Part shown: one piece after another, positions 35,253 through 47,371 of the stretch
How positions within the stretch are numbered: position 1 is the stretch's first letter
Layout: each line of letters opens with the position of its first letter
NCBI RefSeq assembly: GCF_003337215.1
Contig: NZ_QPIG01000001.1
Location: forward strand, 1 to 64,000
Direction of reading: 5' to 3'
Origin: Oceanihabitans sediminis
GTDB lineage: Bacteria > Bacteroidota > Bacteroidia > Flavobacteriales > Flavobacteriaceae
Length of the DNA stretch: 64,000 nt
The notes under the pieces: generated by a model
Databases searched by the model: none
The model's input: the letters and a program-made list of their open reading frames with translations, nothing else
What the model was told of the DNA's origin: nothing
Program-made: the position numbers and the translations under genes

Positions 35253-35271
35253 GTTTAAGTGATAAGCTGAA

Positions 35272-35717
35272 AGCTATGAGCTTTGAGCTTGATTAATTTT
35301 TAATATTTAGTTTTCTTCTTAACGAAGATATCATTTTTCCTTTTTCAGTCAATAATGCACGATTTGATTCATATTGCTCTTTAGAAATATACTTTCTCAA
35401 ATATGCTTTTGTATTCCAAGTCACACATTCATGACTGCTATCCCAAGCCATTTTAAGATATCTATTAAAATTGGCATCCGTACTAGCAGAACCTTCAGAA
35501 ATATTAGCAGCTATTGAGTCTGCGGCTCTAGAAAACTGAGAGGTTAATCTAAAGGTTTCTTTATGTGGAAAGGTTTCAACCAATTCATTAATAATCTCAC
35601 CAAAAGCGATTGCTTTCTGATATACAATTAAATTCTCAAAACTAAAATGATAGTTACTTTCAAATTTCATAATGCTAAATCATATTAAGTATAGTTCTCA
35701 AAATCCAACTCATAGCT
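35272..35717. repeat. Inverted flanks around four-helix-bundle gene 1
   Basis: AGCTATGAG at 35272-35280 is repeated in inverted orientation as CTCATAGCT at 35709-35717. Both lie within longer degenerate tracts: GCTGAAAGCTATGAGCTTTG on the left and GCTCAAGACTCAAGGCT on the right. The pair encloses the 125-residue gene at 35293-35670. Confidence 0.5.
35293..35670 (-). CDS. Four-helix-bundle protein, S23/IVP type (copy 1)
   Basis: A 125-residue protein of the family first seen in intervening sequences of 23S rRNA genes (TIGR02436-like). Shared marks with copy 2 at 41966-42343 are SNYHFSFENLIVYQKAIAFG near the start, LTSQFSRAADSIAANISEGS in the middle, and MISSLRRKL at the end. No enzymatic motif is known; members form small four-helix bundles of unclear function. 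It lies between the PaaF-like gene and paaY, where it has no pathway role that I can see. Degenerate inverted repeats flank it. Confidence 0.9.
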   Translation of the reverse strand: MKFESNYHFSFENLIVYQKAIAFGEIINELVETFPHKETFRLTSQFSRAADSIAANISEGSASTDANFNRYLKMAWDSSHECVTWNTKAYLRKYISKEQYESNRALLTEKGKMISSLRRKLNIKN

Positions 35718-35736
35718 AAAGGCTCAAGACTCAAGG

Positions 35737-36489
35737 CTATTTATAGGTCTTTAATTTTTCTTTTGTGAATTCTGAAAGCACTAAAGTTCCACTAGTTGCA
35801 GCACGTTCTGCTAACAGCGTATCCCAATCTTCCGTTCCTTTCCAGAAAATCGCTTTCATTTCTTTAATCGCTTCTGGATTGTAGGTACATAAGTGCTCCG
35901 CTGTTGCTTTTACAGCCTCGTCTAAAGCTTCTGTAGAATCGTAAACTTGTGTATAAAGTCCTTTTTGTTGTGCCCAGTCTGCAGGGTAAAATGAGTTGGC
36001 ATCAATTGCGATTTGCGACATGGCGCTTAATCCCATTTTACGCTCTATAGCTGGTCCGACTACGAATGGTCCGATACCAATATTTAATTCACTTAATTTT
36101 ATGGCAGCAAATTTCGATGCCATACAATAATCGGTTGATGCTGCTAAACCAACACCACCTCCTACGGTTTTACCTTGCACTCGACCGATAATAAATTTCG
36201 GACATTTGCGCATGGCATTAATAACATTTGCAAACCCAGAAAAGAAAACCTTTCCTGTTTCTGCATCGTTGATGTTAATTAATTCATTAAAACTTGCTCC
36301 GGCACAGAAGGTTCTATCGCCTCCACTCTTAAGAACAATCACTTTGATGTCATCGTTAGTTCCTGCATCGGTAATTGTTTGTGCTAATTTTGCTAAAATA
36401 TCTCCCGGTAGAGAGTTGTGTGCAGGATGAAAAAATTCTATATATCCTACTTCGTTTTGTATGTCTAGTTTAACATAAGGTTGACTCAT
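35737..36489 (-). CDS. paaF: Enoyl-CoA hydratase/isomerase family protein (PaaF-like)
   Basis: A 250-residue crotonase-fold enzyme. The oxyanion-hole segments are GDRTFCAGASFNEL and VQGKTVGGGVGLAAS. It probably acts as the 2,3-dehydroadipyl-CoA hydratase (PaaF) of the pathway, since the other crotonase here (43647-44432) looks like PaaG; the exact assignment is inferred. The usual Glu pair is not obvious: the first region reads VGLAASTDY and the second SELNIGIGPF. The frame extends to an ATG at 36531, but those extra 14 codons are the translation of a REP-like palindrome, so the ATG at 36489 (MSQPYVKLD) is chosen. Confidence 0.8.
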   Translation of the reverse strand: MSQPYVKLDIQNEVGYIEFFHPAHNSLPGDILAKLAQTITDAGTNDDIKVIVLKSGGDRTFCAGASFNELININDAETGKVFFSGFANVINAMRKCPKFIIGRVQGKTVGGGVGLAASTDYCMASKFAAIKLSELNIGIGPFVVGPAIERKMGLSAMSQIAIDANSFYPADWAQQKGLYTQVYDSTEALDEAVKATAEHLCTYNPEAIKEMKAIFWKGTEDWDTLLAERAATSGTLVLSEFTKEKLKTYK

Positions 36490-36584: not shown

Positions 36585-39086
36585 CTAAATTAATCCGAAT
36601 TGCTGGAAATGGTGGTTTAAATGTTTACGCTCTAATAAATACCACTCGTATCTATTTAAATCTCCAAAAACCATATTTGTTAAAACGGCATCTGGATTTT
36701 CTTTATAGAAGGCAACATAAGCCTCTCTTGCTTCAAAGAATTTTGCCTTTGCTGTTTCGAAATCTGGATGTTTTAAATCTTCTAACTCTTCTTTTTTATA
36801 CGTTGGGAAACTCGTTCCTTTTGGGAATTTCTCGTAGTTGTATAATGAATTATGAACTTTCTCAACGATTTTTTCCGGAGTGACACATTCGGTTACTTTA
36901 ATTTCTCCTGAAGCTAATCTGTAACCTTCTTCAAGGTGTTCTAAAAGATGCTGAGGCGTTAGAATTCCCCATTTCGGTTTAGAATCTTCTTTTAATTTTG
37001 AAAGGCATTCTTTGATTTTATCTTCGGTCATTTCAACAAAAACCTCTTGCTTTTTCTCAACCATCGTTAAGATCGTTGCAAAGGCTACCATTTCGTCGGT
37101 TAAGGCATCAAAAACCTCAACATACCATTTTACGATTCCGCTTGGGTGTTCTGCTGAAGCCACATCACGATCAATTTTTTGCTTACAAGTTAAACGCACA
37201 TAGATCGTGTCGTTGTGGTATAGCGGACGAAGGAATCTACATTCTTCCAATCCGTAGTTTGCTGCTACAGGCCCTTTATTAGGATAAACAAATAAACCGG
37301 CTGCTGCTGCTATAATGAAATAGCCGTGTGCTGTTCTTTTTTCAAAAATACTACCGTCTAAAGAGGTGGTATCGGTATGTGCATAGAAATGATCCCAAGT
37401 AAGATTCGCGAAGTTGATAATATCAGAATCTGTTAATGTACGGTTATGCGTTTTAAGCGACATACCCGCTTTGATATCTTCCCAGTGGTATTTAAATGGA
37501 TGCTGTTCTGCTTCCTTATACTCGGCATTTTGCTGATAAATACCTGTAATTTCTGTTAATGTGGTTGGTGAACCTTGAATGGCTGTACGTTGTAAATAGT
37601 GTTTTATACCACGCATTCCACCCATTTCTTCTCCTCCACCAGCACGTCCTGGACCACCGTGAACTAAGTTTGGTAATGGTGAACCATGGCCTGTACTTTC
37701 TTTAGCCATATCACGGTTTATCACTAAAATTCGTCCGTGGTGACTTGCCGCATTAACCACATAGTCCTTAGCTACTTTATTATCGTAAGTGGCGATAGAA
37801 GATACTAACGATCCTTTACCCATTTGCGCTAATGTAATGGCTTCATCCAAGTTTTTATATGGCATTATAGTACTTACTGGTCCGAAAGCTTCGGTTTCGT
37901 GTACTGCTAAATTTGTAAACGGATGATCTTCACGAAGTAAAATCGGACTTAAGAATGCGCCTTTTTTAGCATCGGCACCAATCGTCTCAATCTTATCTAA
38001 ATCACCATAAACAATACTTGCTGTTTTAGATAATTCTTGAACACGCTCTCTCACTTCGGTTACTTGGTCTTTACTCACCAAAGCTCCCATGCGCACCTCT
38101 TTTAATCTCGGGTCACCAATAGTTACTTTAGACAAGGCTTTACCTAGGGCAATTTGAACATCTTCAACCAAATTTTGCGGTACAATTATTCTACGGATAG
38201 CCGTACATTTTTGTCCACATTTCACAGTCATTTCATTTCTAACCTCTTTAATAAACAGGTCGAATTCTGGCGTTCCAGGAATAGCATCTTCACCTAAAAC
38301 GGATGCGTTTAATGAATCGGCTTCCATATTAAATGGCACAGACTCGTCGATAATTCGCTTATGAGATTTTAATAAACGTCCTGTTGTTGCCGAACCGGTG
38401 AAGGTCACGACATCTTGAGATTCTACGGTATCTAAAATCGTTCTTGCCGAACCGGTAATAAGTTGCAGTGCGCCTTCTGGTAAAATTCCAGAAGCTATAA
38501 TTTCACGAACAACAGCTTCGGTTAGAAACGAGGTGTTTGTTGCTGGTTTTACTACAGCAGGCACACCGGCCATCCAGTTCGTAGCACATTTTTCTAACAT
38601 TCCCCAAACCGGGAAGTTAAAAGCATTAATATGAACAGCAACTCCTTTTTTAGGCACCATAATATGATGTGCCATAAAGCGACCACCACGAGACAAATCG
38701 ATAGCATCACCTTCTACGTGATACGACTGATTTGGAAATAATTTACGTAGCGATGCATTGGCAAATAGGTTTCCGAAACCACCTTCAATATCTATCCAGC
38801 TATCTACTTTTGTTGCCCCTGTTCTATAACTTACTTCGTAAAAAGCGGCTTTCTTTTTCATAAGGTAAAGCGCCAGACTTTTTAGCATATTTCCACGTTC
38901 TTGAAACGTCATTTTACGTAGTTTCTCACCACCTTTTGTTCTTCCGTAGTGAAGAATTTCGCCAAAATCTAGACCTTGCGTATCCGATAAGGCAACTACT
39001 TCTCCTGTAATAGCGTCGAACATTGGAACACCTTCACCTGTACCTTCTGTCCATTTTCCGTTGACGTAATTTTGTATTTTTTTCAT
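36585..39086 (-). CDS. paaZ: PaaZ bifunctional ring-opening enzyme with extra C-terminal domain
   Basis: An 833-residue bifunctional enzyme. The N-terminal aldehyde dehydrogenase domain (about 1-510) shows VTFTGSATTGRLL, the catalytic Cys in KCGQKCTAIRR and VHGGPGRAGGGEEMGG. It is followed by an R-specific hydratase (MaoC-like) domain (about 525-680) with TWDHFYAHTD and AHGYFIIAAAAGLF. Together these open oxepin-CoA and oxidise the semialdehyde. The family norm is about 680 residues; here roughly 145 more follow, with DSKPKWGILTPQHLLEHLEE and FGDLNRYEWYLLERKHLNHH, resembling DUF1569 of the DinB superfamily. The frame opens on GTG at 39098, but the ATG at 39086 (MKKIQNYVNG) is the natural start. 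Confidence 0.92.
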   Translation of the reverse strand: MKKIQNYVNGKWTEGTGEGVPMFDAITGEVVALSDTQGLDFGEILHYGRTKGGEKLRKMTFQERGNMLKSLALYLMKKKAAFYEVSYRTGATKVDSWIDIEGGFGNLFANASLRKLFPNQSYHVEGDAIDLSRGGRFMAHHIMVPKKGVAVHINAFNFPVWGMLEKCATNWMAGVPAVVKPATNTSFLTEAVVREIIASGILPEGALQLITGSARTILDTVESQDVVTFTGSATTGRLLKSHKRIIDESVPFNMEADSLNASVLGEDAIPGTPEFDLFIKEVRNEMTVKCGQKCTAIRRIIVPQNLVEDVQIALGKALSKVTIGDPRLKEVRMGALVSKDQVTEVRERVQELSKTASIVYGDLDKIETIGADAKKGAFLSPILLREDHPFTNLAVHETEAFGPVSTIMPYKNLDEAITLAQMGKGSLVSSIATYDNKVAKDYVVNAASHHGRILVINRDMAKESTGHGSPLPNLVHGGPGRAGGGEEMGGMRGIKHYLQRTAIQGSPTTLTEITGIYQQNAEYKEAEQHPFKYHWEDIKAGMSLKTHNRTLTDSDIINFANLTWDHFYAHTDTTSLDGSIFEKRTAHGYFIIAAAAGLFVYPNKGPVAANYGLEECRFLRPLYHNDTIYVRLTCKQKIDRDVASAEHPSGIVKWYVEVFDALTDEMVAFATILTMVEKKQEVFVEMTEDKIKECLSKLKEDSKPKWGILTPQHLLEHLEEGYRLASGEIKVTECVTPEKIVEKVHNSLYNYEKFPKGTSFPTYKKEELEDLKHPDFETAKAKFFEAREAYVAFYKENPDAVLTNMVFGDLNRYEWYLLERKHLNHHFQQFGLI

Positions 39087-39209
39087 AATATTGCCCACGA
39101 CAGTGGGTGTTTTTTAAATTTGAAATTGAAGCTAAAATTGAAGCTGAATGTGCTCCGAGTTCAATTTCATTTTCATTTTACTTTTTTATTCTTCATCTAT
39201 TTTTGAGAC

Positions 39210-39234
39210 CTAACAGGTTTAAAAAACCTGTTAG
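39210..39234. repeat. Strong intergenic hairpin upstream of paaZ
   Basis: CTAACAGGTT (39210-39219) with AACCTGTTAG (39225-39234), a perfect 10-bp stem with a 5-base loop. It lies between the thiolase and paaZ genes. It shares the half-word CTAACA...TGTTAG with the operator-like palindrome before paaE, but the centre is much longer. I believe similar hairpins are dispersed in flavobacteria; this is unchecked. Confidence 0.5.
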
Positions 39235-39258
39235 ACTTTATTCCGTCCGACTGCGTTT

Positions 39259-39342
39259 GCGTTAGCAATTGAAGCGGCATCCTTTTTTGCCATTAAAAGC
39301 AAAAAAGATATAGCGGAAAGTGCGACCCTTGTGGTAACGCCC
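39259..39342 (-). repeat. Structured intergenic repeat, copy C
   Basis: An 84-base copy bounded by GCGTTA and TAACGCCC. Hairpin 1 is CTTTTTTGC (39282-39290) with GCAAAAAAG (39299-39307), and it keeps the flanking words GAAGCGGCATCC and GATATAGCGGA of copy A with a different stem sequence. The region GACCCTTGTGGT forms weak hairpin 2. It ends 5 bases beyond the stop codon of the thiolase gene. Confidence 0.8.
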
Positions 39343-39347
39343 AAATA

Positions 39348-40562
39348 CTACAGATTTACGTTTTCGATAACCGCTGCATAACCTTGACCAACGCCAATAC
39401 ACATGGTTACTAAAGCATAACGTTTTTTCTGCTCGTTCAATTCTAGAGCTGCAGAATACGTGGTTCTCGCACCGGTAACACCTAGTGGGTGACCAATGGC
39501 GATAGCACCTCCATTAGGATTTAACCTCGGGTCGTTGTCTTTTAATCCCCACGCACGCGTACACGCTAAAGCTTGAGCAGCAAAGGCCTCGTTAAGTTCG
39601 ATAACATCCATATCGTCCATTGTTAAACCTGCTTTTTCTAGTGCTTTATTAGACGCTTCTACAGGACCAATACCCATAATTCTTGGCTCGACACCGACCA
39701 CAGCAGAACTTACGATTCTTGCTAGCGGTTTAAGGTTATATTTTTTTACGGCAACTCCAGAAGCAATGATTGTTGCTGCTGCACCATCGTTTAATCCTGA
39801 AGAGTTTCCTGCTGTTACACTTCCGCCTTCTTTTTTAAACGCTGGACGTAATTTTGCCAGTACCTCTAAAGAACTCGTTGGTTTTACGAATTCATCTTTT
39901 GAAAATTGAATCGGGTCTTTTTTACGCTGTGGAATTTCTACGGTAACAATCTCCTTTGCCAGTCTTCCGTTTTCTTGTGCTTTGGTTGCTTTTTGCTGGC
40001 TCCAAAGTGCGAACTTATCTTGGTCTTCTCTTGAGATATTATATTTCTCTACTAGGTTTTCGGCAGTGTTCCCCATACCGTCTGTCCCGTACATCTCGTT
40101 CATTTTCGGGTTTACAAAACGCCATCCGAAACTAGAGTCGTACATTTTAGAATCGTTTCCAAAAGCACTAGAAGGTTTAGCGATAACGTATGGCCCGCGG
40201 GTCATATTTTCTACACCACCAGAAATAAACAAGTCGCCATCTCCAGCTTTGATTGCTCTATTAGCGTGAATGATTGCTGATAACCCTGAACTACATAATC
40301 GGTTCACCGTTTCTCCTGGAACCGTAAAAGGAAGGCCTGCTAAAAGCGCTGACATTCTCGCTACGTTACGATTGTCTTCTCCTGCTTGGTTAGCGCAACC
40401 CATAATCACATCCTCGTAAGCATCACTTGGTATGTTTGGATTACGTTTTACAATTTCTTTGATTACAATAGCTCCTAAATCGTCTGTTCGTACAGCAGAT
40501 AAAGTACCTTTGTAATTTCCTATTGGTGTTCTAATTCCGTCTATTATATAAGCTTCTTTCAT
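39348..40562 (-). CDS. paaJ: 3-oxoadipyl-CoA-type thiolase
   Basis: A 404-residue acetyl-CoA acyltransferase. The nucleophilic Cys is in VNRLCSSGLSAIIHA, the His in GGAIAIGHPLGVTGAR, and the second Cys in VTMCIGVGQG near the end. Its place in the PAA locus and its close similarity in style to 3-oxoadipyl-CoA/3-oxo-5,6-dehydrosuberyl-CoA thiolases (PaaJ/PcaF) point to the thiolytic steps of phenylacetate breakdown. A general acyl-CoA thiolase is possible. Repeat copy C follows the gene. Confidence 0.92.
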   Translation of the reverse strand: MKEAYIIDGIRTPIGNYKGTLSAVRTDDLGAIVIKEIVKRNPNIPSDAYEDVIMGCANQAGEDNRNVARMSALLAGLPFTVPGETVNRLCSSGLSAIIHANRAIKAGDGDLFISGGVENMTRGPYVIAKPSSAFGNDSKMYDSSFGWRFVNPKMNEMYGTDGMGNTAENLVEKYNISREDQDKFALWSQQKATKAQENGRLAKEIVTVEIPQRKKDPIQFSKDEFVKPTSSLEVLAKLRPAFKKEGGSVTAGNSSGLNDGAAATIIASGVAVKKYNLKPLARIVSSAVVGVEPRIMGIGPVEASNKALEKAGLTMDDMDVIELNEAFAAQALACTRAWGLKDNDPRLNPNGGAIAIGHPLGVTGARTTYSAALELNEQKKRYALVTMCIGVGQGYAAVIENVNL

Positions 40563-40661
40563 AATCTTTTATTCTTCTCAGCAGCTGAGCGTTTTAATAT
40601 TATAATTTTTTATTTTGGATTCCGTAGCCCGTACGAAATACCAATGGTATACATCTAAAAT

Positions 40662-41522
40662 TTAATTCAGAATAGCAGAAAAGGTATCACCTTGTCTCAT
40701 ATCCCCTGTTTTAAAGCCTTTCATAAACCACTCCATACGTTGCTCTGAAGTCCCATGAGTAAAGCTATCTGGAGAAACCGTTCCTCTTGTACGCTTTTGA
40801 ATGGCATCATCTCCAACTGCATTAGCTGCACTTAGAGCTTCTTCGATATCTCCTTCTTGTAAATATTTTCTATTGTGATGCGCCCAAACACCTGCATAGA
40901 AATCGGCCTGCAACTCCTGAGCTACAGAAAGTCTATTGGCCTTCGCTTTATTAGATTGCGATTGCAATTGACGTACTTTGTTGGACGTTCCTAATATGGT
41001 TTGAATATGGTGACCAATCTCATGTGCTGTAACATAAGCGATAGCAAAGTCGCCTCCCTTAGCACCGAAACGTGATTTGAGTTCGTTGAAAAAGACTAAA
41101 TCCATATACACTTTTTGATCTCCTGGGCAATAAAATGGTCCGGAAGCGGAACTTGCGCTTCCACAAGCCGTATTCACAGCGTCACTGAACAATACCATTT
41201 TAGGTTCTTTGTATTCCCCTAAATTATATTCTCTAAAAAGTTGAGTCCATATATCTTCTGTATCTGCCAATACGGTAGCCATAAAATCACCCATAAGTTG
41301 TTCTTCTTGGGTTAATTCTCTTTGCTCTACCTGCTGAACCGTTTGACTATTACCTACTTGTTCTATAATTGGAGCTATTTGCTTTCCTGTTTCACCACCA
41401 AAAAGCTGTAAGAGAATCACAACAACGGCGACCAAACCACCACCTGCTGCAATTTTACCTTTAGCCCCCATACCACGACGGTCTTCTAAGTTTCCACTTT
41501 TTCTTCTACCTTGCCATTTCAT
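40662..41522 (-). CDS. Neutral zinc metallopeptidase family protein (YpfJ-like)
   Basis: A 286-residue membrane-anchored protein of the putative neutral zinc metallopeptidase (YpfJ) family. It starts MKWQGRRKSGNLEDRRGMG, as the family does, followed by one membrane segment (IAAGGGLVAVVVILLQLFG). The zinc motif AYVTAHEIGHHIQ (HExxH) lies around residues 163-175, with ELQADFYAGVWA supplying the third ligand region. The substrate is unknown. It has no evident role in phenylacetate catabolism and lies between paaI and the thiolase gene. Confidence 0.9.
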   Translation of the reverse strand: MKWQGRRKSGNLEDRRGMGAKGKIAAGGGLVAVVVILLQLFGGETGKQIAPIIEQVGNSQTVQQVEQRELTQEEQLMGDFMATVLADTEDIWTQLFREYNLGEYKEPKMVLFSDAVNTACGSASSASGPFYCPGDQKVYMDLVFFNELKSRFGAKGGDFAIAYVTAHEIGHHIQTILGTSNKVRQLQSQSNKAKANRLSVAQELQADFYAGVWAHHNRKYLQEGDIEEALSAANAVGDDAIQKRTRGTVSPDSFTHGTSEQRMEWFMKGFKTGDMRQGDTFSAILN

Positions 41523-41541
41523 ATATTAATAGTTTTATGGT

Positions 41542-41952
41542 TTATTCCCAGTCTTTTTGCGTTCTATAAGCAACCCCTTTAAAAAGAGCTACTAATTCGT
41601 CTCCACGTTTTACTTCAATAATATTAAAGCCCAATCTGTTTTTTACATTTTCAATTACGGATTCGGCCACTAAATAATCCCCTTCGTTTAAGGCTTCGAT
41701 ATGATTGATACTCGTTTCGATAGAAACGGCATATTTACCATGGGTATTCGCTGCAAAACCGAAGGCGGTATCTGCTAATGAATAACTGATACCACCATGG
41801 GCTTTCTCCATACTATTAAGCATTTCCTTTCTAACGGTCATCCCTACTTTGCAACGTCCTAATTCACATTCTAGAATTTCAATTCCTAGCCATTGACTAT
41901 AGGCGTCTTGGCTGAGCATTTTGTGTGGGATTTGAGCTGGATTTAAAGGCAT
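41542..41952 (-). CDS. paaI: Hydroxyphenylacetyl-CoA thioesterase
   Basis: A 136-residue hotdog-fold thioesterase. The active-site helix AHGGISYSLADTAFGFAAN (about residues 51-69) has the Gly-Gly and Asp typical of PaaI. PaaI releases CoA from stalled hydroxylated phenylacetyl-CoA intermediates. The ATG at 41952 abuts the repeat tract that flanks the four-helix-bundle gene, so the untranslated region before paaI consists of that repeat. Confidence 0.93.
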   Translation of the reverse strand: MPLNPAQIPHKMLSQDAYSQWLGIEILECELGRCKVGMTVRKEMLNSMEKAHGGISYSLADTAFGFAANTHGKYAVSIETSINHIEALNEGDYLVAESVIENVKNRLGFNIIEVKRGDELVALFKGVAYRTQKDWE

Positions 41953-41977
41953 TAGTTATTAGGGATTAGGGATTAGT
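41951..41977. repeat. Left flank repeat of four-helix-bundle gene 2
   Basis: A tandem tract with ATTAGGGATTAGGGATTAG as its core. Its TATTAGGGATT word (41957-41967) recurs inverted as AATCCCTAATA at 42361-42371. The stop codon of the four-helix-bundle gene lies inside this tract. Confidence 0.65.
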
Positions 41978-42343
41978 TCGTTCTAAAATTTTTCTTCTTA
42001 ATGAAGATAGCATTTTTGTTAATTCTGAAATTAATTTTCTATTCTCTTCATCTTTTTCAAAGCTAATATAAAATCTTCTTTTGGCTTTCGTACTGCAACT
42101 CACACACTCATTGGCACTGTAAATAGCATGATTTATATGCTTAACGAATTGTGCATCTGAGCCTGGATATCCTTCAGCAATATTCAATGCTATAGAATCT
42201 GCTGCCCTCCTGAATTGTGATGAAAGCCCATACAGTTCATGATTTGGAAAGTCTTTCACTAAAGCATTTACCACTTCACCGAAATCCATAGCTTTTTGAT
42301 AAACTTGTAAATCTTCGAACTTAAAATGGTAGTTGCTTTTCAT
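41966..42343 (-). CDS. Four-helix-bundle protein, S23/IVP type (copy 2)
   Basis: A 125-residue paralogue of the protein at 35293-35670, of identical length. Matching blocks are SNYHFKFEDLQVYQKAMDFG, LSSQFRRAADSIALNIAEGY, and MLSSLRRKI. The frame extends upstream to a TTG at 42361, but the ATG at 42343 gives the conserved N-terminus. The last codons (ERTNP then stop) run into the left flank repeat. The gene and its flanks fill the whole paaH-paaI junction. Function of the family is unclear. Confidence 0.9.
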   Translation of the reverse strand: MKSNYHFKFEDLQVYQKAMDFGEVVNALVKDFPNHELYGLSSQFRRAADSIALNIAEGYPGSDAQFVKHINHAIYSANECVSCSTKAKRRFYISFEKDEENRKLISELTKMLSSLRRKILERTNP

Positions 42344-42375
42344 ACTAATTCCTATTTCCAAATCCCTAATACCTT
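42344..42375. repeat. Right flank repeat of four-helix-bundle gene 2
   Basis: ACTAATTCCTATTTCCAAAT followed by CCCTAATACC. The 11-base word AATCCCTAATA (42361-42371) is the exact inverse of 41957-41967, and ACTAAT (42344-42349) inverts ATTAGT at 41972-41977. Together the tracts form degenerate terminal inverted repeats around the gene. Confidence 0.65.
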
Positions 42376-42381
42376 AAATGT

Positions 42382-43539
42382 CTATTTAAAAAACGTCATT
42401 CCTTTATTATTCATTCGTCTTAACAACGGACTACAACGGTATCTGTCTTCGTGGTATTCGTTATATAAATCGTCTAATTTTGAAACGCACCAATCGATAC
42501 CTTTTTCATCTGCCCAAGCCAATAGTCCTTTTGGGTAGTTAACCCCTTTAGTCATGGCATTGTCAATATCTTCGGCTGAGGCGATGTTTAAAAACAAGGC
42601 ATCTGCCGCTTCGTTGATTAGCATCACCAATACTCTATCGAATATTTGATTTGCTAATTCTTTATCTTGTTTTGGTTCTGGTTTTACAGCACCTTCAGAA
42701 TAATCATAATATCCTTTTCCTGATTTTCTTCCTAGGTAGCCTGCTTCTGAAAAGCGTTTTTGTGTAAAAGATGGCTTATATCTCGGATCGAAATAGAAGG
42801 CCGTAAATACGGTTTCGGTAACGGTATAATTCACATCATTTCCAATGAAATCCATGAGTTCGAATGGTCCCATTCTAAAACCACCAACTTGTTTCATTGC
42901 ATCATCAATCGTTGCAAAGTCAGCTATACCTTCCTCGTAAATTCGTAATGCTTCACCATAAAATGGACGTGCTACTCTATTCACGATAAATCCAGGAGTG
43001 TCTTTAGCAACAGCGACTGTTTTTTTCCAATCGCTAATGGTTTGTATGGACTTTTCAAGAACTTCTTTTGAGGTTTGAATTGCAGGAATAACCTCTACCA
43101 GCTTCATTAATGGTGCTGGATTAAAAAAGTGAATCCCAACACAACGTTCAGGCTTTTGAAGTGATGAGGCAATGGAAGCGATAGACAAACTAGAGGTGTT
43201 GGAAGCGATAATACAATCGTCTGCAACATAAGACTCTAATTCTGAAAATACTTTTTTCTTAATGTCAAGGTTTTCAATAATAGCTTCGATGGTTAGGTTT
43301 GAATCTGCTAAACTTTTCAATTCAACGACATAAGAAATATTCGATTGAATTCTGTTTTTTTCTGCAGAATCCATTCTACCTTTCTCGATTAAACGAGATA
43401 ATATTTTCTCAAGAGACGCCTTAGCTTTATCTAAAGCCGCTTGATTGGTATCGTATAATTTCACTTGGCAACCAGCAGTGGCCGCAACTTGCGCTATGCC
43501 ACTTCCCATGGTTCCTGAACCTATAATTCCTACGTTCAT
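42382..43539 (-). CDS. paaH: 3-hydroxyadipyl-CoA dehydrogenase
   Basis: A 385-residue NAD-dependent 3-hydroxyacyl-CoA dehydrogenase. The Rossmann motif GIIGSGTMGSGIAQVAA starts at residue 4. CVGIHFFNPAPLMKLVEVIP holds the catalytic His, and TPGFIVNRVARPFYGEAL is the conserved helix. The C-terminal dimerisation domain has FELMDFIGNDVN and GYLGRKSGKGYYDY, with a second partial domain after it. In the PAA pathway it oxidises 3-hydroxyadipyl-CoA. It is downstream of paaG with a REP-like palindrome between them. Confidence 0.94.
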   Translation of the reverse strand: MNVGIIGSGTMGSGIAQVAATAGCQVKLYDTNQAALDKAKASLEKILSRLIEKGRMDSAEKNRIQSNISYVVELKSLADSNLTIEAIIENLDIKKKVFSELESYVADDCIIASNTSSLSIASIASSLQKPERCVGIHFFNPAPLMKLVEVIPAIQTSKEVLEKSIQTISDWKKTVAVAKDTPGFIVNRVARPFYGEALRIYEEGIADFATIDDAMKQVGGFRMGPFELMDFIGNDVNYTVTETVFTAFYFDPRYKPSFTQKRFSEAGYLGRKSGKGYYDYSEGAVKPEPKQDKELANQIFDRVLVMLINEAADALFLNIASAEDIDNAMTKGVNYPKGLLAWADEKGIDWCVSKLDDLYNEYHEDRYRCSPLLRRMNNKGMTFFK

Positions 43540-43558
43540 GTTTTATATTTTTATTGTG

Positions 43559-43584
43559 GATTCCTATCTGCGTAGGAATAACAA
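43559..43584. repeat. REP-like palindrome
   Basis: TTCCTA (43561-43566) pairs with TAGGAA (43573-43578). Compared with the unit at 36559-36582 both arms have changed (CCTG/CAGG to CCTA/TAGG), so pairing is kept. It lies between paaG and paaH. Confidence 0.55.
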
Positions 43585-43646
43585 ATCTGTTTATTTAATT
43601 ATATTATCGAATTTAAGTTGCGGGAAGCAACCTTATTCGAACTTTC

Positions 43647-44432
43647 TTATTTCCCTTTAAACTCAGGTTTTCTTTTTTCAATAAAAGCAGAAACTCCTTC
43701 AGCATAATCTTCTGTTTGAGCCGCTTCAATCTGTAATTTAGATTCTAGAGCTAATTGTTGCTCTAAGGTATTTGTCATCGAGCTATTGAATAACTCTTTG
43801 ATTAAGCCTAAAGCTTTTGTTGGCATATTAGCGAGTTTCAATGCAAGTTTATTTACTTCTTCATCGAAGCTTTCTAAAGGAATCATTTTATAAATCATTC
43901 CCATTTTCTCTGCTTCTTCAGCAGAAATCTTATCTCCTAACATAGCTAAGGCTTGCGCTTTTTGAAAACCGATTAATCGCGGTAAGAAGAAGGTTCCTGC
44001 ACTATCAGGAACTAAACCTATTAAGCTAAAAGCTTGAATGAAGCTCACTTTTTCATGAGCCACTACAATATCACAGGCTAATGCAATATTTGCTCCTGCA
44101 CCAGCTGCCACACCATTTATAGCGCCTATAATTGGTTTTTTAATTTTTCGGATTCTGGTAATTATAGGATTGTAATGTTCTTCGAGGATTTTTTTGAATC
44201 CCGGATTTAACTCCGGACTGGTTACTTCTTTTAAATCTTGACCTGCACAAAATGCTTTTCCGTTTCCGGTTAACACCATGGCTCTAACTTCCGGATTGTT
44301 TTCACAGTCGTCTAAAACACTTTGCAAACGCAAAGCCATTTCGCGATTAAAACTATTGAAAACTTCTGGCCTGTTTAGTGTAATGAAGGCGATTTTGTTT
44401 TCGATTTTTAATTCGATTGAATTATTGCTCAT
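43647..44432 (-). CDS. paaG: PaaG, epoxyphenylacetyl-CoA isomerase
   Basis: A 261-residue crotonase-fold protein. ITLNRPEVFNSFN and GNGKAFCAGQDLKE form the first oxyanion-hole region, INGVAAGAGANIALACDIV the second, and FIQAFSLIGLVPDSAGTFFLPRLIG matches the PaaG-type isomerase rather than a hydratase: the second Glu of hydratases is replaced by Asp-containing VPDSAGT. PaaG turns the ring 1,2-epoxide into oxepin-CoA. It lies downstream of paaD, in the usual early position. Confidence 0.9.
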   Translation of the reverse strand: MSNNSIELKIENKIAFITLNRPEVFNSFNREMALRLQSVLDDCENNPEVRAMVLTGNGKAFCAGQDLKEVTSPELNPGFKKILEEHYNPIITRIRKIKKPIIGAINGVAAGAGANIALACDIVVAHEKVSFIQAFSLIGLVPDSAGTFFLPRLIGFQKAQALAMLGDKISAEEAEKMGMIYKMIPLESFDEEVNKLALKLANMPTKALGLIKELFNSSMTNTLEQQLALESKLQIEAAQTEDYAEGVSAFIEKRKPEFKGK

Positions 44433-44504
44433 ACCTTATATTTTGTTTGTCATAAAAAAAAGGGATGGTCTTAAAGAAGATTTTCCCTTCGTTTTAAATA
44501 ACTT

Positions 44505-45005
44505 TTATTTTAAACATTTAAAATAGTCGAACGGCTCTTGGCAGTCATCACACTGAAATTGTGCTTTACACGCTGTTGAACCAAACTGACTGACTAATCG
44601 TGTGTTTTGCGAACCACAATTGGTACACTTCACAAAACGTTTTCCGTGCAGCAATACATCTTTATCGGCTTCCGGCCCAAGAGGTGCTGCAATTCCGTAA
44701 TCTTCTAATGCTTTTCTACCTCGTGGCGTAATCCAATCGGTGGTCCAAGCTGGGTGCAGAATTAATTCTACTTCAGAATCGTAACCTGCGTGTTTTAAAG
44801 CCGCTTTAATATCATCACCAATAACGTCCATTGCAGGACAGCCGCTGTAGGTTGGTGTGATTTGCACTTTAACTGTATTATTTTCGATAACTGCAGAACG
44901 TACCACCCCCATATCCATAATAGACAGGACCGGAATTTCAGGATCTGAAACTTGCTCCAAGATTGGAACTAAGATGTCGTCTATATTTTGTTCTGTTGTT
45001 GTCAT
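44505..45005 (-). CDS. paaD: PaaD, epoxidase maturation-type subunit
   Basis: A 166-residue protein with an N-terminal MIP18/DUF59 domain (LEQVSDPEIPVLSIMDMGVV, TYSGCPAMDVIGDDI) and a C-terminal zinc-ribbon-like segment (VKCTNCGSQNTRLV ... QFQCDDCQEPFDYFKC). PaaD is needed for the activity of the PaaABCE multicomponent epoxidase, probably through iron-sulfur cluster assembly. The ATG is preceded within a few bases by TTTCAA hexamer repeats (minus-strand reading). Confidence 0.93.
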   Translation of the reverse strand: MTTTEQNIDDILVPILEQVSDPEIPVLSIMDMGVVRSAVIENNTVKVQITPTYSGCPAMDVIGDDIKAALKHAGYDSEVELILHPAWTTDWITPRGRKALEDYGIAAPLGPEADKDVLLHGKRFVKCTNCGSQNTRLVSQFGSTACKAQFQCDDCQEPFDYFKCLK

Positions 45006-45011
45006 TTGTTG

Positions 45012-45035
45012 TTGAAATTGAAATTGAAATTGAAT
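45012..45035 (-). repeat. TTTCAA hexamer tract before paaD
   Basis: About four TTGAAA units on the plus strand (TTTCAA on the gene strand), the last being TTGAAT. It ends 7 bases before the paaD start codon, within its leader. Confidence 0.75.
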
Positions 45036-45105
45036 TCGGAGTTAAAAATTCACATCTGGCGTTTCAACTTCGTGTTCGATTTCGTTATTCTATTTTCTTT
45101 TTATC

Positions 45106-45135
45106 ATGAAATTCTTCGCTTTCGCTCTGAATGAC
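45106..45135. repeat. Degenerate REP-like unit
   Basis: ATTCTTCGCTTTCGCTCTGAATGACA-type sequence, similar at its ends to the dispersed REP-like palindromes, here with imperfect pairing. A cognate degenerate form is at 31259-31284. It lies between paaC and paaD. Confidence 0.4.
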
Positions 45136-45144
45136 ATTTCTGTT

Positions 45145-45897
45145 TTACCATTCCATATTTGGGTAAGCACGCTGCATGTATTGCAGTTCTGCCAACAAAT
45201 AGCCCATATGTTCTGTATGAATACCTTTTTTACCTCCTTTTTGGAAGTATTTAGATTCTGGTGTTTCTAAAGTCGCTTCGGTTAAAACTTCGTTTACTTT
45301 TTCGTAATAGGCGTCTTTTAGCTTGGTAACATCTACACCTATTCCTTCTGCAACCATAGCTTTATCGGCCTTCGTTTGATGGAATAATTCATCGGTATAG
45401 GTCCATAAATCGTTTATAGCTTCTTGTATTTTGGCTTTACTTTCTGCTGTACCATCACCTAAACGCTTCATCCAATCTGAAGTAAATCGCTCATGGTAAC
45501 GCACTTCTTTAATACATTTTTTCGCAATTGCAGAAAGTGTTAAGTCTTTACTTTTCTCTAATTCTGTAAGGAATAATAAGTGGTATACATCAAAAAGAAA
45601 GTGACGTGCTATGGTATAAGCAAAGTCTGTATTTGGTTGTTCTACCAATAAGACATTTACATATTCACGCTCTTGACGAAGCATGGCAATATCATCTTCT
45701 GTTCTACCATCACCTGCTAATTTTGATGCATATTGAAAATAGCTACGCACCTGACCGAATAAATCTAATGAGATATTGGTGCACGCGATATCGGTTTCTA
45801 AACTTGGACCATGGCCACATAGTTCTCCCATGCGCTGACCAAGGATTAAGCTGTTATCTGCTATTCCAAGTATGTAATTATATAAGTTTTGTTTCAT
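45145..45897 (-). CDS. paaC: PaaC, phenylacetyl-CoA epoxidase structural subunit
   Basis: A 250-residue ferritin-like di-iron-fold subunit of the 1,2-phenylacetyl-CoA epoxidase. Family blocks include LILGQRMGELCGHGPSLETD near the start, MLRQEREYVNVLLVEQPN, FLFDVYHLLFLTELEKSKD, KEVRYHERFTSDWMKRLGDG, and the terminal GKKGIHTEHMGYLLAELQYM. PaaC is a non-catalytic partner of PaaA. Immediately before its ATG lies a long TTTCAA hexamer tract. Confidence 0.95.
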   Translation of the reverse strand: MKQNLYNYILGIADNSLILGQRMGELCGHGPSLETDIACTNISLDLFGQVRSYFQYASKLAGDGRTEDDIAMLRQEREYVNVLLVEQPNTDFAYTIARHFLFDVYHLLFLTELEKSKDLTLSAIAKKCIKEVRYHERFTSDWMKRLGDGTAESKAKIQEAINDLWTYTDELFHQTKADKAMVAEGIGVDVTKLKDAYYEKVNEVLTEATLETPESKYFQKGGKKGIHTEHMGYLLAELQYMQRAYPNMEW

Positions 45898-45898
45898 G

Positions 45899-45934
45899 TT
45901 GAAATTGAAATTGAAATTGAAATCGAATTCGAAA
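45899..45934 (-). repeat. TTTCAA hexamer tract before paaC
   Basis: Four exact TTGAAA units then diverged AATCGA/ATTCGA units on the plus strand, ending 1 base before the paaC start codon. It is the longest of the three such tracts. Confidence 0.8.
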
Positions 45935-46036
45935 TCCCTTCAATTTATATTTTTAATTCTTGTGACAATAATTCTAATAAGCTGATCATTTTCATTTTTC
46001 AATTTAGCTAAATCAGCTTCAAGTTCAGTTTCACCT

Positions 46037-46324
46037 TTACATATGCTTCACTTCGTCTGGTAGATCGTAAAACGTTGGGTGACGGTATACTTTATCTTGA
46101 GCAGGCTCAAACATTTCGCCATTATGCTCTGGGTTTGATGCTGTAATATTTTTTGATTCTACAACCCAAATACTTACGCCTTCATTTCTTCTTGTATATA
46201 CATCACGTGCATTTTCTAGAGCCATATCTGCATCTGCAGCGTGAAGACTACCAAAATGTCTGTGTTCTAATCCGTTTTTACTTCTTACGAAGACTTCCCA
46301 AAGAGGCCAGTTTTTTGTTGACAT
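46037..46324 (-). CDS. paaB: PaaB, phenylacetyl-CoA epoxidase subunit
   Basis: A 95-residue PaaB. The family pattern is clear: WPLWEVFVRSKNGLEHRHFG, SLHAADADMALENARDVYTRR, EGVSIWVV and the C-terminal DKVYRHPTFYDLPDEVKHM. It bridges PaaAC heterodimers in the epoxidase complex. It lies between paaA and paaC. A short TTTCAA tract stands in its leader (46340-46352). Confidence 0.96.
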   Translation of the reverse strand: MSTKNWPLWEVFVRSKNGLEHRHFGSLHAADADMALENARDVYTRRNEGVSIWVVESKNITASNPEHNGEMFEPAQDKVYRHPTFYDLPDEVKHM

Positions 46325-46339
46325 ATTATTTATATATTA

Positions 46340-46352
46340 AATTGAAATTGAA
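46340..46352 (-). repeat. Short TTTCAA tract before paaB
   Basis: AATTGAAATTGAA-type sequence, about two hexamer units, 16 bases before the paaB start codon. It is shorter than the tracts before paaC and paaD. Confidence 0.6.
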
Positions 46353-46414
46353 CTCTCACTTGCCTTTCGAAATGTATTCGATTTGCAGTGTAAGATCATT
46401 TTCAAGTTCTTTTT

Positions 46415-47371
46415 TTAGATTACTTGTTTTTTCTTTCTTTCCTGTGATTTTTCTGCATAAGCCATAGCTGCATCACGAACCCATTCTCCGCGCTCCCATG
46501 CTCCTACTCTAGCTTTCATACGTTCTTTGTTACATGGTCCGTGACCTTTAACCACTTGCCAAAACTCGTCCCAGTTAATTTCACCGAAATCGTAGCTTCC
46601 GCGTTCTTCGTTCCATTTTAAATCTGGATCTGGAATGGTTAAACCTAAAATATCGGCTTGCGGCACTGTTTGATCTATAAACTGCTGACGCAGATCGTCA
46701 TTAGATTTTCTTTTCAGTTTCCATTTCATAGATTGTTCTGTGTGAACAGACTCTGCATCTGTAGGTCCAAGCATCATTAATGCTGGCCACCACCAACGGT
46801 TTAGGGCATCTTGCGCCATTTCCTTTTGTTCTGGCGTACCATTACTAAGTTTTAGCATGATTTCGAAACCTTGTCTTTGGTGGAAACTTTCTTCTTTACA
46901 CACACGAATCATCGCTCTTGCATACGGTCCGTAAGAGGTATTACAAAGTGGCACTTGGTTAATAATGGCTGCACCATCTACCAACCAACCAATGGCTCCC
47001 ATATCTGCCCATGTAATTGTTGGGTAGTTAAAAATGGAAGAGTATTTAGCTTTTCCGGTATGGAGTTGCTCGTACATTTCGTCTCGTGAAATCCCAAGAG
47101 TTTCTGTTGCCGAATACAAGTAGAGTCCGTGACCAGCCTCATCTTGTACTTTAGCAAGAAGCGCTACTTTACGTCTTAAAGATGGCGCTCTGGTAATCCA
47201 GTTACCTTCTGGAAGCATCCCTACAATTTCGGAATGTGCGTGTTGCGACATTTGACGAATATGTGTTTTACGGTATTTTTCTGGCATCCAGTCTTTAGGT
47301 TCGATTTTCTCGTCTCTTGCGATACGTTCTTCGAATTGTTTTTCTAGATTTTTTATTTGTTCTTCACTCAT
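46415..47371 (-). CDS. paaA: PaaA, phenylacetyl-CoA epoxidase catalytic subunit
   Basis: A 318-residue catalytic di-iron subunit of the ring 1,2-epoxidase. Metal-ligand regions include [31 protein letters not shown] (ExxH) and [16 protein letters not shown] (ExxH), with [19 protein letters not shown] downstream. The first ATG of the frame is at 47398, but [17 protein letters not shown] at 47371 fits the family N-terminus. Repeat copy D and about 200 bases separate it from paaE. Confidence 0.96.

Follow-up and report, generated by a model that had tools for sequence, protein, structure and literature searches.

A probable intervening-sequence-type element, with a four-helix bundle gene between inverted heptad arrays, in the paa operon of Oceanihabitans sediminis

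What separates paaH from paaI in Oceanihabitans sediminis? In the window, the whole stretch of 64,000 nt analyzed here (contig NZ_QPIG01000001.1, positions 1 to 64,000), both genes lie on the minus strand: paaH, the upstream host gene, at 42382–43539 (3-hydroxyacyl-CoA dehydrogenase; NF006124 above cut-off, TIGR02279 below cut-off; domains 3HCDH_N and 3HCDH), and paaI, the downstream one, at 41542–41952 (hotdog thioesterase; TIGR00369 above cut-off, TIGR02286 below cut-off; 4HBT). The 429 bp from the paaH stop (42382) to the paaI start (41952) are wholly occupied by a single element, as a preliminary description of this DNA had stated. It carries a gene for a 125-aa four-helix bundle protein of the S23 family (23S rRNA-intervening sequence protein; PF05635, E 1.8e-27; TIGR02436, E 2.1e-26) at 41966–42343, also on the minus strand, with its start likely at the ATG at 42343; the TTG at 42361 given in the ORF list is inside the right tract. 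On the 5′ side of the gene is a proximal heptad array (42344–42374; period-7 score 19/28) that reads ACTAATTCCTATTTCCAAATCCCTAATACCT on the plus strand and GGTATTAGGGATTTGGAAATAGGAATTAGT on the coding strand, and on the 3′ side a distal array of period 7 (41948–41976; score 20/28) that reads GGCATTAGTTATTAGGGATTAGGGATTAG on the plus strand and is CTAATCC-type on the coding strand. The order on the coding (minus) strand is thus paaH stop, GGGATTA-type array, ATG at 42343, the four-helix stop codon within the TAATCCC-type array, and paaI start. The left tract does hold the stop codon of the four-helix gene, as previously noted (TTA on the plus strand, 41966–41968), and the paaI start codon (41950–41952) lies inside the same distal array.

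The inverted ends reported in the preliminary description are confirmed at the level of the letters, with TATTAGGGATT at 41957–41967 being the reverse complement of 42361–42371 over 11 bp without a mismatch. The tandem unit, by contrast, had been given as the 8-bp GGGATTAG and is in fact 7 bp, GGGATTA. Extended arms at 41954–41976 and 42352–42374 are 23 nt long and 83% complementary. Shuffling the letters 1000 times produced an exact inverted match of 11 bp between the tracts twice, and 3000 random window positions with the same geometry produced one; taken alone, the pair is unusual, not extreme, and it is the family-wide tests below that settle the reality of inverted ends. The folding of the element gave z = −2.18, with 2 of 100 shuffles equally good. 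A search of 41500–42600 against Rfam returned no match, and neither did a PADLOC search. A solved relative of the four-helix protein is 2gsc (E 1.8e-9).

The arrangement follows the same plan as the intervening sequence (IVS) in the 23S rRNA of Coxiella burnetii. As described in the portions of Warrier 2016 drawn on here (PMC4990558), that IVS is 428 nt long and has a 28-bp terminal inverted repeat, with an RNase III site at the first repeat; it carries an S23p ORF in sense, direct heptamers (GACAGAT) precede the ORF, and the sequence preceding the start codon differs among strains. The paaH–paaI element matches it in its S23-family ORF in sense, its tandem heptamers before the ORF, its terminal inverted repeats and its length (429 bp versus 428 nt), and on the strength of this shared plan we interpret it as an element of IVS type located outside rRNA. 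Unlike the Coxiella IVS, its host is a protein operon junction rather than a 23S rRNA helix, and the elements studied here bear arrays on both sides, each with its own heptad, a difference that holds against the same portions of that paper. Since it is located between paaH and paaI and the Rfam search of the locus was empty, the element is built like an IVS yet is no IVS in the strict sense. We therefore think it probable that an IVS-type element of about 0.43 kb sits in this protein operon, with a sense PF05635 gene between inverted arrays of the element's own heptad. Against this reading stand 33 of 162 related genes without an array, some arms in direct orientation, arrays without a gene (in the source genome, G000, and in G001 and G019), three plasmid copies in antisense and a negative G-U test for a sense-RNA stem (both described below).

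To see how general the plan is, we turned to the flanks of other PF05635 genes, which are present in 63 of 99 related genomes and in 0 of 14 control genomes. A first set was built from 108 HMM matches, with loci picked among the matches listed, which gave 84 distinct genes of sufficient length and 81 with readable flanks. Counting a flank as periodic when a window in it had at least 19 of 28 matches, period 7 was found in 40/81 upstream and 47/81 downstream flanks (one of the 47 being a run of N), compared with 0.0 in shuffles; period 8 was found in 10 upstream and 6 downstream flanks, and the remaining periods between 4 and 12 in 0–3. Ordinary gene flanks in the same loci had period 7 in 34/189, some of which may belong to neighboring arrays. 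When each upstream flank was compared with the reverse-complemented downstream flank of its gene, the median score was 29 and 40/81 reached at least 30, versus a median of 17 and 1.5% for mismatched copies; direct-orientation matches of at least 30 occurred in 7/81, one of them a row of N. That row comes from L038, whose downstream run of N matches at every lag and also directly; rows of N were excluded from the 77 and 162 genes below.

Two further collections gave a similar picture. The second set was taken from a scan of genome contigs as the best 79 of 583, all confirmed, and leans to Bacteroidota because it was drawn in this way; 77 were used after L254 and L255 were dropped for a short flank. 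Among these 77 of the best 79 of 583, period 7 was present in at least one flank of 44, period 8 in 12, period 9 in 6 and others in 0–2, and the own inverted median was 29 versus 17 for mismatched copies, with direct matches of at least 30 in 10/77. The records include some titled Ignavibacteriae, Fodinibius, Omnitrophota and Nitrospirae, some of them metagenome bins that may be mislabeled. A hand-picked plasmid set of 18 of 41 records (16 cyanobacteria, Gemmatirosa and Azospirillum; L318 and L319 near-identical) had period 7 in 12/18, period 8 in 6/18 (three in both) and period 6 in 3, and L316, L325 and L327 had neither period 7 nor 8. Its own inverted median was 40 versus 16 mismatched, with at least 30 in 12/18 versus 6.2% of mismatched copies and direct matches of at least 30 in 3/18.

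Joining the two chromosomal sets gave 162 distinct genes, which are not independent, since similar flanks place 93 of them in 17 groups. The best period was 7 in 104/162, 8 in 21, and 5, 6 or 9 in 4, with none in 33 at the threshold; a tandem array of period 7 or 8 lay in at least one flank of 125/162 genes. As the strictest control we paired 200-bp stretches separated by 330 bp within these loci, away from the elements (n = 485). An inverted match of at least 30 was found in 85/162 elements versus 0/485 control pairs, so that the inverted arrangement proposed for one locus does recur around other family members, and period-7 arrays in 108/162 versus 21/485. At a stricter cut, 53/162 elements had period-7 arrays, whereas five genomes sampled at random had 0 to 0.5 per 100 kb.

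The repeat sequence differs from element to element, while the left and right arrays of the same element agree in inverted orientation. Both the choice between period 7 and period 8 (12 changes on the protein tree; shuffled mean 19.8) and an AGA core (17 changes; shuffled mean 32.5) track the protein tree, with 0/300 shuffles as low in either case. A constant triplet plus a variable tetrad within each heptad was also tried and set aside as too weak (0.923 versus 0.905 for permuted columns, 67/104 above). Among the 93 elements in the 17 similar-flank groups, the left array matched its own right array with a median of 30 and the right array of another copy with 17, and the own match beat the cross match in 608/677 pairs. 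Such agreement within a copy would fit either concerted change in the two arms or repeated insertion. The two largest groups, with 29 and 28 copies, mark junctions of a beta-oxidation operon that are occupied by many four-helix clades; from translations of four loci (L014, L093, L219, L226) we named them J1, thiolase and acyl-CoA dehydrogenase, and J2, 3-hydroxyacyl-CoA dehydrogenase and thiolase. On the protein tree, occupancy changes at least 13 times for J1 and at least 17 times for J2, versus shuffled means of 27 and 26; this favors repeated insertion, weakly, as the tree is a quick one of about 110 columns. L219 and L226 have elements at both junctions, and the two are of different clades.

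Sister species provide sites without the unit, which the preliminary description had proposed to look for, at three places: the paaH–paaI junction, the site of a second element in the window (gene 1, described below) and the L083 site. Nineteen paaI loci were read, G004 being unreadable where the locus is cut. In five of them (G000, G006, G002, G033 and G028) a four-helix gene separates paaH from paaI, with period-7 scores in the 150 bp before paaI of 20, 19, 12, 16 and 17, respectively. The cassettes of G000 and G006 have genes 80% identical and similar flanks; the arrays are GAGGTTT-type in G002 and G033 and GTAGTTT-type in G028. All five belong to one subfamily, and the tree does not separate one insertion from several. 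Nine loci have no four-helix gene at this junction (G001, G003, G005, G035, G015, G032, G014, G018 and G011), and the stop of paaH and the start of paaI overlap in G015. In G019 the spacer has an inverted repeat but no gene (period-7 score 20), and G030, G034 and G016 have a different ORF between paaH and paaI; G016 also has an apparently decayed element on the other side of paaI (L058). The first codons of paaI are replaced by the element in the source genome, where they read MPLNPAQIPHKM (L041), versus MKGEQIPHKM in G003 and G005 (L044, L046), which are without it.

At the L083 site the element is present in G005, G003 and G004 and G000 has an apparently decayed copy. G001 (flank identity 94–97%), G002 and G006 lack it; their spacers differ and measure 56 to 71 bp, and the one in G001 may contain array-like remains. 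The gene 1 site (L291–L296) has the element in G000 alone among seven genus members. In G002 a single base separates stop and start at this site, and sister species have REP-like palindromes (G004 and G006) or an unrelated ORF of about 300 bp (G001, G003 and G005) there, which gives this operon junction the look of a general hot spot for insertion. Inspection by eye of the paaH–paaI, gene 1 and L083 sites showed no target-site duplication; the spacers have changed, so that an old duplication could have been lost. No transposition event was seen in this material; we infer that the element is mobile in its own right.

The source genome (2.9 Mb, 20 contigs) has three PF05635 matches: the paaH–paaI copy, gene 1 and a broken copy. 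Gene 1 is a second element in the same paa operon, of the same four-helix subfamily in the tree; the gene is at 35293–35670 on the minus strand (PF05635, 92.7 bits, match 35326–35637) and the element spans 35264–35739. Its heptads are AGCTTTG-type, unlike those of the paaH–paaI copy. The distal array with its own heptads, AAGCTGAAAGCTATGAGCTTTGAGCTTGA (plus strand, 35264–35292), scores 20/28 for period 7, and the proximal array, TCATAGCTAAAGGCTCAAGACTCAAGGCTA (plus strand, 35710–35739; 18/28), is inverted relative to it by eye, although the arms match poorly when scored (19, rank 22 of 81). The broken copy (C11:964117–964344) has two internal stops, with TAGGGATTAGG preceding it and (CTAATCC)n following. 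Four further places in G000 (L003, L005, L006 and L007) have GGGATTA-type arrays but no gene. These tracts (L003:1390–1600, L005:1460–1550, L006:1425–1530, L007:1390–1545) are intergenic, degenerate in their period 7 and up to about 200 bp long, with TANNNNC on one strand, and three of the four, judged by eye, are flanked by co-directional genes. G001, a genome without any PF05635 match, has a near-perfect (GACTGAA)n array at L149:2291–2387. In random samples of their sequence, G000, G001 and G020 had 0.25 to 0.5 period-7 arrays per 100 kb, and none turned up in the samples from G031 and G038. The idea that solo arrays are made by PF05635 proteins in trans was dropped, as array density shows no relation to gene number in these five genomes.

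Placement relative to host genes is strongly directional. In the chromosomal sets, 152 of the 158 copies with readable neighbors are in sense between co-directional genes, 1 is antisense between genes of this kind and 5 lie between genes of differing direction, with adjacent ordinary gene pairs in the same loci co-directional in 220/254. Among plasmid copies with annotated neighbors, 12/16 are in sense between co-directional genes, 3 are antisense (L314, L316 and L324) and 1 lies between genes of differing direction (L317). The sense preference is thus strong and not absolute, since 3 of these 16 plasmid copies are antisense between co-directional genes.

Four other explanations were weighed. 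The preliminary description had taken the unit for a MITE-like or non-autonomous mobile cassette. The mobile cassette is supported, in that the gene and its inverted repetitive ends behave as a single unit; the likeness to a MITE or an ordinary non-autonomous transposon is not supported, because the end sequence is private to each copy, no target-site duplication was seen by eye at the three sites and a gene of a conserved family is carried. That a gene is present in every element is an outcome of the search design and we do not count it against this alternative. A host transposase acting in trans on terminal inverted repeats would account for the inverted ends and for the sister-species sites without the unit, but the ends differ among copies of the same genome and of the same junction (own right array 29–30, other copy's 17), and the chromosomal sets show strong sense bias within operons; together with the lack of any duplication seen by eye, this makes such a transposon highly improbable. 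If the heptad arrays were instead independent simple-sequence repeats in intergenic DNA, in or beside which four-helix genes merely land, the solo arrays of G000 and of G001 and the period-7 tracts in ordinary gene flanks would be expected. A gene landing in one array should nevertheless have direct arms, and inverted arms dominate; arrays are also far denser at elements than in the control pairs or, at the stricter cut, in the random samples, and their period follows the protein clade. We consider this explanation quite improbable.

The sense bias counts in favor of two further alternatives. The gene and its arms could be kept as a regulatory module that serves the host by tuning expression of the flanking genes, for example through a hairpin or an RNase III cut between paaH and paaI. 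Placement in sense at operon junctions, recurrence at two junctions of a beta-oxidation operon and the fold of the element are in its favor. Occurrence among sister species is patchy, however, decayed-looking copies exist (the third copy of the source genome, L058, and G000 at the L083 site), the host genes are varied and include cas and cmr operons, and a G-U test was negative; we hold a host-serving role to be unlikely. In that test, wobble pairs favored the antisense strand (310 versus 246, p 0.0075; 64 versus 51 elements), and arm duplex energies showed no strand difference. Selection for a sense-RNA stem was accordingly not supported, the G-U test having gone the opposite way and the energies not differing by strand. 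Alternatively, the element could be a retroelement that a reverse transcriptase mobilizes in trans through an RNA copy, partnered by the four-helix protein in the manner of Avd. Sense bias within transcribed operons would follow, and the protein matches Avd of diversity-generating retroelements (DGR; E 3.3e-6), a likeness also stated for PF05635 in the part of PMC10053308 drawn on here. Unlike DGR Avd, the elements show no dependence on reverse transcriptase: RVT_1 occurs in 25/99 genomes, and among the five with at least 10 PF05635 matches, G013, G012 and G033 have none and G044 and G053 have one. With the three antisense plasmid copies also against it, a retroelement appears distinctly unlikely. 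Dependence on reverse transcriptase was likewise not seen, as RVT_1 does not track PF05635 across the 99 genomes. No reverse transcriptase was evident by eye among the ORFs listed for 38500–46500; elsewhere in G000, RVT_1 is found at C11:118037–118885.

Returning to the IVS-type element, its parts suggest how it could persist. The two arms would fold it into a hairpin around the gene, in the transcript or in single-stranded DNA, and the four-helix protein may bind the nucleic acid of this hairpin and share in movement or upkeep of the element. The operon transcript might be cut within the arms by RNase III, as in the 23S IVS. Residing in operons, the element would need no promoter, and it would stay because insertions at junctions do little harm, with even the paaI start codon supplied here. 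The array sequence presumably changes fast or is renewed on insertion while both arms stay in agreement. For the Coxiella IVS, the portions of Warrier 2016 drawn on here conclude that S23p probably is not produced in vivo, an argument against the need for a protein in that case, and report no effect except fragmentation of 23S rRNA; mobility of the IVS is already one of the hypotheses listed (PMC4990558).

Heptamer arrays have been described elsewhere. In the main text of Rehm 2015 (PMC4692102), arrays of GGGAATC in Xanthomonas and GGGGA(C/T)T in Nostoc prefer sites between aligned ORFs; there are 70 convergent inverted pairs in Xcc and 75 in Xac, and Nostoc has few inverted pairs, with none on its plasmids. 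Mobile elements are generally not associated with these arrays, and G-quadruplexes were proposed. They resemble the elements studied here in their heptamers, their placement between aligned ORFs and their convergent inverted pairs; unlike our elements, they come with no use of the terms ‘S23’, ‘four helix’ or ‘four-helix’ in that main text. TAACTGA heptamers occur in Beggiatoaceae, Cyanobacteria and Bacteroidetes, mostly upstream of start codons (MacGregor 2015, PMC4679880), and some arrays are split by related heptamers. Horizontal spread was suspected and a translational role suggested, with no mechanism of spread given in the parts of that paper drawn on here. These arrays are like ours in being heptamers that mostly precede start codons, and unlike ours in being almost all direct (the main genome has 169 direct sets and a single indirect repeat), with no S23 protein or helix bundle named in those parts. 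As repeat length, placing and lineages are alike, we propose that the published arrays of Xanthomonas, Nostoc and Beggiatoaceae may be linked to four-helix elements. A literature search, in which subscription journals were mostly outside coverage, found no heptamer arrays joined to S23 or four-helix genes outside rRNA. Heterocystous cyanobacteria have STRR heptanucleotides, and the Nostoc tRNA-Leu intron has heptanucleotide repeats; both look like the same kind of array.

A wider idea, which we put forward tentatively, is that PF05635 genes could be the core of a widespread class of mobile elements without a transposase, which would themselves write or renew their paired, private heptad or octad ends, with unit length tracking protein clade. 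Ribosomal IVSs would then be the minority that landed in 23S, and the heptamers of Xanthomonas, Nostoc and Beggiatoaceae would be footprints. If true, this would join three puzzles, namely the role of S23/IVS proteins outside rRNA, the spread of IVSs and the origin of intergenic heptamer repeats in several phyla, and it would offer a candidate mode of movement without a transposase or a reverse transcriptase of the element's own. It predicts that most PF05635 genes are flanked by paired private heptads. A small element of selfish appearance, its anatomy described so far within rRNA genes, is found here in a degradation operon, with relatives between genes of many other bacteria. Among the plasmid copies, L324, one of those in antisense, has its arms in direct orientation (score 102, versus 12 for an inverted match), and on the cyanobacterial plasmids L311, L312 and L315 four-helix elements lie within CRISPR operons, between cas6 and cas4 or between cmr2 and cmr3.
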